From a virus, in IMG/VR virus record IMGVR_UViG_3300038548_000096, positions 1-38,780 of that record: DNA of 38,780 nucleotides. One strand, written 5' to 3'. The notes under the pieces were generated by a model, which was given only the letters and a program-made list of their open reading frames with translations, was not told the origin of the DNA and did not search any database. Made by a program: the position numbers and the translations under genes. Shown in pieces: positions 9,197-13,134 of the stretch; positions within the stretch are counted from its first letter, which is position 1; each line of letters opens with the position of its first letter.

Positions 9197-9365
9197 ATAT
9201 ATAGCTCATACAGGTAAGAAGCAGCCGGTAGCTGATGATGTGGTGGTAGAGGTCAAATTCCGTAGCGGGAGAATCGATGACGATCTAGATGCTGGGGATA
9301 TGTTTTGGGAACACGACGGTTCCTTCTGCGACATCATCGCCTACCGCGTTATAGAGAATGAATAA
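9186..9365 (+). CDS. Conserved small phage protein, 'KQPVADDVVVEVKFRSG' type (59 aa)
   Basis: The sequence MKPRYIAHTGKKQPVADDVV and the later GDMFWEHDGS...DIIAYRV match a short protein found in many phage early regions, of unknown function. The fold appears beta-rich. The start at 9186 is chosen because GAGGAG is upstream and because family members begin at this Met. The stop overlaps the ATG of the O-like gene (TAATG). Confidence 0.65.
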   Translation: MKPRYIAHTGKKQPVADDVVVEVKFRSGRIDDDLDAGDMFWEHDGSFCDIIAYRVIENE

Positions 9366-10285
9366 TGGAGGGCTGGCTAAAACTCCACAGGTCGATAGCA
9401 GACCACTGGATCTATTCATTCAAGGAACCGGACAAGGCTTTAGCCTGGATCGATCTGTTGATCATGGCAAGGCATACGGACGGCACCATTATGTTGAAGG
9501 GTAGAGCGTTAGAGCTTAAGCGTGGACAGGTTGGAATGTCTCAACTAGCCATGCAGAAACGATGGGGGTGGTCACAGAACAAGGTAAAAAGGTTTTTAAA
9601 CTTGCTCAAAAAACACCGTATGTGTGACTTTGAAACGAACGACCTGACAACCGTTATAACCGTATGTAATTTCGATAGTTATCAGAGTCGAGAGCGTACA
9701 GACGAACGACCTAACGAACGAGCAGACGAACGACCAGTCGAACGTACCGCGAACGACCAGTCGAACGACGATATAAGAATGAGAGAATGTGAAGAAGGTA
9801 AGAATGTAATTAAAACCATTGATCAAACAGACCTTGATCGACTGTTCGGTTTCTTCTATTCAGCCTATCCAAAAAAGGTTGATAAGCAAAAAGCCAGTCA
9901 GAAGTTCGGGTTGATCTTCAGAGGTAAGCAACCATCTCAGGCAGACGAACTGTTAGACCTGATCATCAACAACATCAATCAGAGGATTGCAGCCGGTGGG
10001 TGGGACTTGGCAAACAAGCACTTCATACCTGGACCAGCTAAATACCTGTTAAACAAATCTTGGGAAGACGAAATCATAGGGGCACCGAATGGATCACATC
10101 AACAAACATCTGCACAACAACGGGCAATCGACTCAGACGACACAAGCTGGGCAACCTCGCCAGCATTCAGAGGCAGATTGGAAAGCAACGGCTCACATAG
10201 TCAACGGCATCTTCAAGCAGCTTCAGGCGATTTACCCGGCATGGAAGCAGGCTTACTCATCGACCACGACCCTGGGGGAGATTAA
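9365..10285 (+). CDS. Replication initiator, lambda O-like (306 aa)
   Basis: Predicted to bind the origin and recruit the helicase loader. The N-terminal ~115 residues contain a winged-helix pattern: WLKLHRSIADHWIYSFKEPD, then LKRGQVGMSQLAMQKRWGWSQNKVKRFLNLL, then a beta wing. The middle (about 113-135) is a hydrophilic four-residue repeat (DERP, NERA, DERP, VERT) encoded by DNA iterons. The C-terminal domain (LDRLFGFFYSAYPKKVDKQK...PGPAKYLLNKSWEDE) is typical of phage replication proteins acting with a P-type loader. The last 197 bp overlap the P-like gene in another frame. The start overlaps the preceding stop and has only a weak SD. Confidence 0.82.
   Translation: MEGWLKLHRSIADHWIYSFKEPDKALAWIDLLIMARHTDGTIMLKGRALELKRGQVGMSQLAMQKRWGWSQNKVKRFLNLLKKHRMCDFETNDLTTVITVCNFDSYQSRERTDERPNERADERPVERTANDQSNDDIRMRECEEGKNVIKTIDQTDLDRLFGFFYSAYPKKVDKQKASQKFGLIFRGKQPSQADELLDLIINNINQRIAAGGWDLANKHFIPGPAKYLLNKSWEDEIIGAPNGSHQQTSAQQRAIDSDDTSWATSPAFRGRLESNGSHSQRHLQAASGDLPGMEAGLLIDHDPGGD
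9703..9770 (+). repeat. Six iterons inside the O-like gene, probable replication origin
   Basis: The core CGAACG appears at 9703, 9715, 9727, 9739, 9750 and 9762, spaced 12, 12, 12, 11 and 12 bp; most copies extend to CGAACGACC. A further copy is at 9636. An AT-rich purine-loaded stretch (9771-9825, starting ATATAAGAATGAGAGAA) follows directly. Iterons within the initiator gene plus an adjacent AT-rich segment is the plan of the lambda origin. The function is inferred from this layout. Confidence 0.72.
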
Positions 10286-10796
10286 GAAGCAGTGGGCAAT
10301 TGGCCTAGTCGACGCGGGTATCACTGACCAAGAGCTTATTGATGCCGGTATTAATGCCTGTCGTGACTCTGGCTCGCCTTTCATACCTACCGTGGGTCAA
10401 TTCATAGGTTACTGCAATAAGGCCGTGTACGAGCGCCTAGGTGCCTTAGATACGATGGCAGCTTACAAACATCTACAGGGTCATTACGCCACACCAGCAG
10501 AACACAGAGAACCATGCAGACTGAATCCATTCGTTTATCACCTGATCACCGATACCGGTTTCGATCCGTTCGCGTTCAAGGCTATGAGGACTGATGACGC
10601 TATCAAATCATTCTCATCTAGTTATAAGGTCGTATTGGACTATGTGTCAAAGGGTGGTGAACTACGCAAGCCTATCGAACCTGATATGCGGATTGAGAAC
10701 CCTTCCGGCGTTACTCACAAGAAGGGTCGTATACCTGTAGAGGATGCACAGTCAATTATCAAAACGATGCGTGAATCGCTGAACTTGGAGAAATAG
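10089..10796 (+). CDS. Replication protein P-like helicase loader (235 aa)
   Basis: Lambda P captures the host DnaB helicase and brings it to the O-bound origin. The match is clear: HIVNGIFKQLQAIYPAW (about 37-53) corresponds to the QIINGVFSQL segment of P. EIKKQWAIGLVDAGIT...AGINACRDSGSPFIPTVGQFIGYC (about 64-109, quoted in parts) follows the lambda pattern of RRQWVLAF and PFLPSPGQFVAWC. The length is near the lambda protein (233 aa). AGGGG lies 7 nt before the ATG. The first 197 bp overlap the end of the O-like gene out of frame, an unusually long overlap. Confidence 0.87.
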   Translation: MDHINKHLHNNGQSTQTTQAGQPRQHSEADWKATAHIVNGIFKQLQAIYPAWKQAYSSTTTLGEIKKQWAIGLVDAGITDQELIDAGINACRDSGSPFIPTVGQFIGYCNKAVYERLGALDTMAAYKHLQGHYATPAEHREPCRLNPFVYHLITDTGFDPFAFKAMRTDDAIKSFSSSYKVVLDYVSKGGELRKPIEPDMRIENPSGVTHKKGRIPVEDAQSIIKTMRESLNLEK

Positions 10797-12087: not shown

Positions 12088-12244
12088 CTGCAACAAGTGC
12101 CGCGACATCCCCACATACGCCGAGGCAGGCACTACACAGCCATTAGAGCGTAAACCGTGCCCCCAATGTCAGATAGACCATAACGCTGATGCTGTGCGTT
12201 CTATGGTGCGTAATATGACTACTAGCGTGGATGTGAAGGTATGA
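12080..12244 (+). CDS. Small zinc-finger-like protein coupled to the methylase (54 aa)
   Basis: CNKC (4-7) and CPQC (about 27-30) form a four-Cys zinc-binding pattern. The start overlaps the preceding gene by 8 bp and the TGA overlaps the ATG of the methylase (ATGA), so methylase translation is probably coupled to this gene. No family recognised. Confidence 0.58.
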   Translation: MTNCNKCRDIPTYAEAGTTQPLERKPCPQCQIDHNADAVRSMVRNMTTSVDVKV

Positions 12245-13134
12245 AAGTCCTCGACCTGTTCAGCGGTATAGGTGGATTCAGCTTGGGGCTTGAGAGGGCA
12301 GGTTTTGAGACAGTTGCATTCTGTGAGTTTGAACCACACGCCCAGGCCATTCTTAAAAAACATTGGCCTGATGTGCCGATATTTGACGATGTGAGGGAAT
12401 TAGATGGACGACAATTCAGAGGATCAGTTGACATTGTTTGCGGGGGGTTCCCCTGTCAAGACCTATCCGTTGCAGGCAAAAAAGCAGGCTTTGACGGTGA
12501 CCGCTCAAGCTTATACGTCGAGATGCTTAGAATTATTAGCGAGTGTTTGCCACGATACGCAATTTTTGAAAACGTCACAGGGCTGCTTAGCGGTGACAAC
12601 GGGCGATGGTTCGCACAGTTTCTCTATGACCTGGCCGAGGTCGGGTATGATGCGGAATGGCATTGTATCGAAGCTGCCTACCTTGGCGCACCGCACAGAA
12701 GGGACAGGGTGTGGATTATTGCCTACCCCAGTGAAGGCGGACGCGACGACGGGGAGCATCATCGGGAAAAACGACACATACAAGGTGAATCAGAGCGGAA
12801 CCATACGGAAGATAAACCAGAACGGAGCGGACGGTTCGCTAGGGCTTGGGCGCTGGGTGAAGTTCTTTCCAACGCCTTGCGCGACAGACAACAGAGATCG
12901 AGGGAATTTGACGAATCCGAGTATTCAAAGGCGGTTGAGGATTGGGAAGCAGGTAGGTCTATCAGCGGTTGTATCGGAGAAATCTGGGAAACTGAACCCA
13001 GAGTGGGTCGAGTGGTTGATGGGGTTTGGAAGAAATCATACCAAGACAGACTTGAGCGATTAGGTAACTCAGTGGTTCCGCAAATCCCCGAAGCGATAGG
13101 CCTGGCAATCGCTAACTTTGAGGCTAACAAATGA
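12241..13134 (+). CDS. DNA cytosine-5 methyltransferase (297 aa)
   Basis: Transfers a methyl group from S-adenosylmethionine to carbon 5 of cytosine, probably to protect phage DNA from host restriction. Motifs are complete and in order: I DLFSGIGGF (5-13), IV GGFPCQDLS (68-76, catalytic Cys72), VI ENV (110-112), VIII APHRRDRVWII (150-160), and IX/X RLERLGNSVVPQIPEAIG near the end. The segment between VIII and IX (about 163-260), the target-recognition part, is unusually charged and low in hydrophobics (SEGGRDDGEHHREKRH), probably because a second gene is read through it in the +1 frame. No partner endonuclease is nearby, so it is an orphan methylase. Confidence 0.92.
   Translation: MKVLDLFSGIGGFSLGLERAGFETVAFCEFEPHAQAILKKHWPDVPIFDDVRELDGRQFRGSVDIVCGGFPCQDLSVAGKKAGFDGDRSSLYVEMLRIISECLPRYAIFENVTGLLSGDNGRWFAQFLYDLAEVGYDAEWHCIEAAYLGAPHRRDRVWIIAYPSEGGRDDGEHHREKRHIQGESERNHTEDKPERSGRFARAWALGEVLSNALRDRQQRSREFDESEYSKAVEDWEAGRSISGCIGEIWETEPRVGRVVDGVWKKSYQDRLERLGNSVVPQIPEAIGLAIANFEANK
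12404..13063 (+). CDS. Gene nested in the +1 frame of the methylase (219 aa)
   Basis: This ORF lies wholly inside the methylase gene, +1 frame. It has its own ribosome binding site: GAGGGA 5 nt before the ATG. The sequence is ordered, with motifs I recognise from a recurrent phage protein group found beside cytosine methylases: QLTLFAGGSPVKTYP at the start, TWPRSGMMRNGIVSKLP, repeated LLPTPVKADA and FFPTPCATDNRDRG, and KLNPEWVEWLMGFGRNH at the end. The segment SPVKTYP is the shifted reading of the methylase PCQ motif, and WPRSGMM...LPTP the shifted reading of its motif VI-VIII region. It is therefore probably a true overprinted gene. Function unknown. Confidence 0.68.
   Translation: MDDNSEDQLTLFAGGSPVKTYPLQAKKQALTVTAQAYTSRCLELLASVCHDTQFLKTSQGCLAVTTGDGSHSFSMTWPRSGMMRNGIVSKLPTLAHRTEGTGCGLLPTPVKADATTGSIIGKNDTYKVNQSGTIRKINQNGADGSLGLGRWVKFFPTPCATDNRDRGNLTNPSIQRRLRIGKQVGLSAVVSEKSGKLNPEWVEWLMGFGRNHTKTDLSD

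Follow-up and report, generated by a model that had tools for sequence, protein, structure and literature searches.

Can a reading frame of 219 codons that lies wholly inside a gene for a C5 cytosine methyltransferase be a gene in its own right and, if so, which function does its product serve? The question is raised by a methylase gene in the replication and recombination block of the window, i.e. the whole stretch of 38,780 nucleotides analyzed here, whose content (portal, terminase, Erf- and Gam-like proteins, a P-like helicase loader and NinB) is of the tailed-phage type. We refer to the methylase as alpha and to the nested gene product as beta, and have compiled the parts of the locus in the table. 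The original prediction of a 660-bp nested frame with its own Shine-Dalgarno sequence proved accurate with regard to coordinates, +1 position relative to alpha and location of the GAGGGA element. The motif correspondences it had pointed out are also present: the PCQ codons of alpha, when read in +1, give SPVKT of beta (12449-12463), and those of DLAEVGYDAEW...RVWIIAYP likewise give WPRSGMM...LLPTP. A further overlap exists elsewhere in the window, where two genes for DnaD-like and P-like helicase loaders (9365-10285 and 10089-10796) share 197 nt in different frames and both match PHROGs.

Table. Features of the nested methylase locus, with positions in the window
Feature	Position	Strand	Basis
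alpha, C5 cytosine methyltransferase, 297 aa, motifs I-VIII and X, without motif IX	12241..13134	+	PF00145, phrog_363, AlphaFold
beta, nested gene, 219 aa, ATG at 12404, TAG stop ending at 13063	12404..13063	+	ORF, PHROG_1008, +1 constraint
Shine-Dalgarno GAGGGA of beta, 5 nt before ATG	12393..12398	+	sequence
alpha motif IV GGFPCQD, including the catalytic Cys; read as GSPVKT in the +1 frame of beta	12442..12462	+	sequence
alpha motif VIII region HRRDRVW; +1 reading runs into ...GTGCGLLPTP of beta	12694..12714	+	sequence
beta target-recognition-like module 1, LLPTPVKADATTGS...SLGLGRWVKF, beta aa 105-154	12716..12865	+	module also in fused-type L176, L179, L181; module arrays
beta target-recognition-like module 2, FPTPCATDNRDRGN...GLSAVV, beta aa 155-194	12866..12985	+	module also in unrelated phages, e.g. 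L002, L020, L034
beta motif IX, GKLNPEWVEWLMGF..., beta aa 195-213	12986..13042	+	hhalign versus in-frame motif IX of fused relatives
alpha predicted disordered linker, aa 177-262; read in beta as modules and motif IX	12769..13026	+	pLDDT mostly <50
alpha motif X, RLGNSVVPQIPEAIGLAI	13057..13110	+	conserved in homologue alignments A2 and A6

Alpha matches phrog_363 as well as PF00145 (186.9 bits with a curated cut-off of 22, E=8e-55), the latter over residues 1-195 only. It carries motif I, the catalytic PCQ, ENV (motif VI), the motif VIII arginines and motif X, and the motif columns are invariant in alignment A6. The earlier view that the methylase keeps all its motifs thus holds for I, IV, VI, VIII and X but not for motif IX, which is absent from alpha and present in beta. 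In the AlphaFold model of alpha the catalytic core is ordered, with pLDDT ~95 over the greater part of residues 1-165, and aligns with M.HhaI over 163 columns at 1.8 Å; the motif X helix is likewise ordered. Residues 177-262, where the small domain should be, are disordered in the model, and no folded small domain is predicted in alpha. The methylase part opposite the C-terminal half of beta had been described as oddly charged, and we found it to be charged and predicted disordered. Beta matches PHROG_1008 (E=4e-24, residues 7-215 of 219), so that the proposed search against phage proteins did reveal relatives; searches against Pfam and PDB sequences returned nothing relevant. PHROG_1008 is listed as 'DNA methyltransferase', yet the nested protein is devoid of catalytic motifs, and the description of the family does not mention the +1 overlap. 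Modeled alone, beta gave a poor AlphaFold prediction (pLDDT 62.6, pTM 0.29), which was set aside for fold search and might be as expected for a subunit that folds on its partner.

Homologues had been predicted always to lie in +1 to a C5 methylase, and this was borne out almost without exception. When phage and viral loci were searched by the nested protein and both proteins were found, the nested frame was +1 to the methylase in 89 of 90. The nested alignment was also searched against 84,980 bacterial and archaeal genomes, yielding 322 genome matches, and 79 of the best 80 of these have the same arrangement. L060 (shift 2) turned out to be a mismatch of two different genes on one contig, and in L199 (shift 0) the assembly itself seems to have been frameshifted. 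With a single nested sequence as query at least 441 viral contigs were matched, and 13 of 369 sampled genomes were positive in the class that holds Pseudomonas. To obtain a set without selection on the nested frame, only the methylase was used as query. An open +1 stretch of at least 130 codons is present in each of the 80 best loci of this search, compared with one for +2. Over the aligned overlap of 73 nonredundant methylase-selected genes (14,040 codons), there are seven stops in +1 versus 827 in +2; zero +1 stops occur across the overlap region in 71 of the genes, and six of the seven fall in L140 because this gene belongs to the fused type described below, in which the nested ORF ends before motif IX. 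When a set of this kind was examined over a looser region, 37 +1 stops were observed where ~439 were expected by synonymous shuffling. An SD-like match precedes 82 of 136 first nested ATGs (60%) as compared to 164 of 1021 internal +1 ATGs and 64 of 473 +2 ATGs (14-16%). The nested frame is a real conserved gene, and chance is excluded.

Constraint on the two frames was assessed by shuffling the synonymous codons of alpha, which preserves the alpha protein and its codon usage and scrambles the +1 reading. The +1 similarity among homologues lies above that of the shuffles with z=84 overall; the z-scores ignore phylogeny, and the parts of the same genes outside the overlap, which serve as internal controls, give values close to zero or below it (z=0.2 and -4.9 for alpha aa 1-40, upstream of the nested gene; -4.1 for aa 281-300, downstream of it). 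The excess begins at about alpha aa 41-60 and is gone by aa 280. Conservation of amino acids in +1 is therefore far above the level forced by the methylase frame, and it is so only within the nested gene. In the reverse test, with beta codons shuffled, alpha is better conserved over beta aa 1-100, while over beta aa 121-180 it is beta that is better conserved and alpha is barely conserved. The two tests together confirm the anticipated synonymous-site constraint in both frames.

The residues of LNPxWVEWLMGFPxGWT, the C-terminus of the nested protein, are spaced as in C5 motif IX (M.HhaI KLHPRECARVMGYPDSY). Among the classified loci, 210 have their match to this motif in +1 and five have it in frame 0, one of the five being a probable assembly frameshift. 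In a fused type of methylase (L140, L176, L179, L181 and L254-L256), motifs I-VIII, IX and X all reside in the methylase frame, in which LNPxWVEWLMG is followed by motif X. PF00145 covers residues 2-319 of 324 in L176 and nearly the whole profile is matched in L176, L179 and L181. The fused proteins align with M.HhaI (KLHPRECARVMGYPDSY...FGNSVV) ungapped and colinearly over motifs IX-X; as a separate domain, the M.HhaI motif IX matches are weak (7-11 bits, conditional E ~1e-5 to 1e-4), yet colinear. An hhalign comparison of the nested C-terminus with the in-frame motif IX of the fused relatives gave E=7e-14. From these similarities, the nested C-terminus can be identified as the small domain of the methylase itself, displaced into the other frame and with motif IX at its end. 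All seven fused-type genes have the nested ATG (MQLSK/RT/M-W) in common, and their nested frame is open for 153-180 codons, stopping before motif IX. In L179, +1 constraint amounts to z=11-20 over aa 101-280 and then falls to 0.9 over motif IX. The +1 constraint thus ends before the in-frame motif IX: constraint at the protein level goes with this motif from one frame to the other, and the remainder of the nested frame is preserved whether or not motif IX is there. L014 and L176 have near-identical methylase genes with an apparent one-base shift before motif IX, which may reflect either an error in sequencing or a genuine change of frame.

The middle of beta consists of units that start with [LWFY]PTP. 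In the window, beta contains two such units, the second of which (PTPxATDNRDRGN...) recurs in unrelated phages. Related marine phages (L034-L054) carry overlaps of 336-585 codons in which beta is built from as many as seven units in a row, most of them 34-55 aa long, with order and number varying between relatives; the same stretch of alpha is a hydrophilic, low-complexity linker. Same-strand dual coding of 336-585 codons with varying PTP arrays was noted in L034-L054 and also in the marine phage methylases L068 and L070, and one 145 aa module in such arrays has an insertion resembling a helix-turn-helix segment. Conservation and disorder, as seen in sequence and the single-chain model, favor beta over alpha as the site of target recognition, and the PTP modules may well read the DNA target. 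We lean towards the broader view that a widespread class of methylases has as its specificity subunit a modular target-recognition array whose coding sequence lies entirely in +1 within the gene of the catalytic partner, that modules would be gained, lost and exchanged between phages with both frames kept open, and that each frame would be primary in one half and overprinted in the other.

Could the nested frame be a by-product of the methylase? Methylase DNA read in +1 always shows some similarity, and a chance open frame might stem from composition or codon bias, with its similarity forced by the methylase frame. Shuffles predict many stops and no excess conservation for this case, and both expectations are contradicted. 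Moreover, the +2 frame has its expected number of stops and AT-rich genomes (GC 0.34-0.45) keep 200-585 open +1 codons. A chance ORF is refuted by the stop and constraint tests and deserves practically no credence. Some more, albeit little, can be given to an overprinted accessory protein of unrelated function, a regulator or inhibitor for example, as beta has no Pfam or PDB match and its N-terminal half plainly overprints methylase motifs. Such a protein would not be expected to show motif IX homology at its C-terminus, nor would the motif be missing from alpha and transferable between frames, and the lack of a predicted small domain in alpha argues in the same direction; we consider this explanation improbable.

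Programmed ribosomal frameshifting, by which the N-terminus of alpha would be fused to the C-terminus of beta, has the appeal that motifs I-VIII, target recognition and motif IX would be restored in one chain. At most loci, motif X is in frame 0 and a +1 product would thus be without it. SD sites at the nested ATGs and constraint on the nested frame far upstream of any sensible shift point also speak against a shift, making it even less probable than an accessory protein. The locus very probably encodes a two-polypeptide C5 methylase of the M.EcoHK31I type, consisting of alpha (motifs I-VIII and X) and nested beta (target-recognition modules and motif IX), because there is dual coding with constraint in both frames, motif IX is found in beta and not in alpha, alpha has no predicted small domain and motif IX changes its frame. 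Alpha would bind AdoMet and carry the catalytic cysteine, and beta, read in +1 from its own ribosome site, would supply the small domain with target-recognition modules followed by motif IX. In the complex that we infer, beta would dock on alpha so that the DNA cleft is closed and the target sequence determined, and neither protein alone should therefore methylate DNA; together they would behave as an ordinary C5 methylase divided into two chains. Its role in the phage is likely self-methylation against host restriction.

According to a report by Lee, Kam and Shaw from 1995, the gene for the small subunit of M.EcoHK31I lies within that for the large subunit, in a different frame. Two-polypeptide C5 methylases are exemplified by M.EcoHK31I and M.AquI (PMC3404938). 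In M.EcoHK31I (YGGCCR), motifs I-VIII and X are located in the large subunit and only motif IX in the small one, and the predicted target-recognition domain was placed in alpha, not beta (PMC3404938). Judged by motif layout, the window system resembles this enzyme: its large subunit has I-VIII and X without IX, its small subunit carries IX, and the genes are nested in different frames. It differs in being phage-borne and in having target-recognition-like modules in the small subunit, sometimes as tandem arrays. When M.EcoHK31I was sought in E. coli genomes by DNA similarity, only other methylase copies were found, at least one of them in a prophage. An E. coli prophage copy at L351:1514-2275 is flagged as a pseudogene due to an internal stop, and the two frames are interrupted at almost the same position. 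With M.AquI, the window system shares the location of catalytic part and small domain on separate chains, but M.AquI beta contains IX and X, while here alpha has motif X and one gene lies completely within the other. Motif X was found on the small subunit only in L007 and L014. The former, mycobacteriophage Dylan, has the M.AquI layout: gp7 ends after motif VIII and gp6 (+1) carries a PTP module, IX and X. Both Dylan proteins are annotated simply as DNA methylase. The methylases of the Bacillus phages SPR, phi3T and H2 are single-chain, single-frame enzymes. They are multispecific and possess tandem target-recognition domains (PMC8936443), which the beta arrays with their modules of ~35-55 aa look like.

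How may the arrangement have arisen? The original prediction suggested that the whole group of nested proteins was born by overprinting of C5 methylases. Overprinting does apply to the N-terminal half of beta, which overprints methylase motifs IV-VIII where alpha is better conserved, but not to the C-terminal half, which is itself methylase sequence. Motif IX homology contradicts a separate group and points to beta as the second subunit of the same enzyme. Over its C-terminal half, beta can be taken on this evidence as the true methylase frame and the alpha linker as the overprint. Possibly, a frameshift split an ancestral methylase, as suggested by Dylan gp7/gp6 that still show motif X in the +1 chain, and alpha would then have read through and recovered motif X.

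The kind of enzyme is already known, and an arrangement known from one or two bacterial enzymes is widespread in phages and prophages. In divergent FFAGIGGW-type C5 methylases (L333, L336, L337 and L341), too, a nested +1 frame is present and carries motif IX (as QLNPAHSRWLMG or a similar sequence), and the arrangement thus spans distant methylase groups. In the literature searched, which covered few subscription papers, we found no description of a phage-wide nested subunit; its breadth, the two-frame modular arrays of up to 585 codons, reciprocal overprinting, the frame change of motif IX and the presence in the FFAGIGGW group appear undescribed there. Only one of the two frames is annotated in most phage records examined. 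L001 (Microcystis phage Mwe-JY08) is the reverse of most of these records: its annotation covers just the end of the nested frame and overlooks that of the methylase. Many entries named cytosine methylase are therefore probably incomplete for want of an essential subunit, and this could be a reason why expression failed or no specificity was assigned. The loci also provide an extensive natural collection of long dual-coding regions on one strand, for each part of which the primary frame can be recognized and in which a domain is seen changing its reading frame between relatives, and they offer naturally split methylases for targeted methylation tools.
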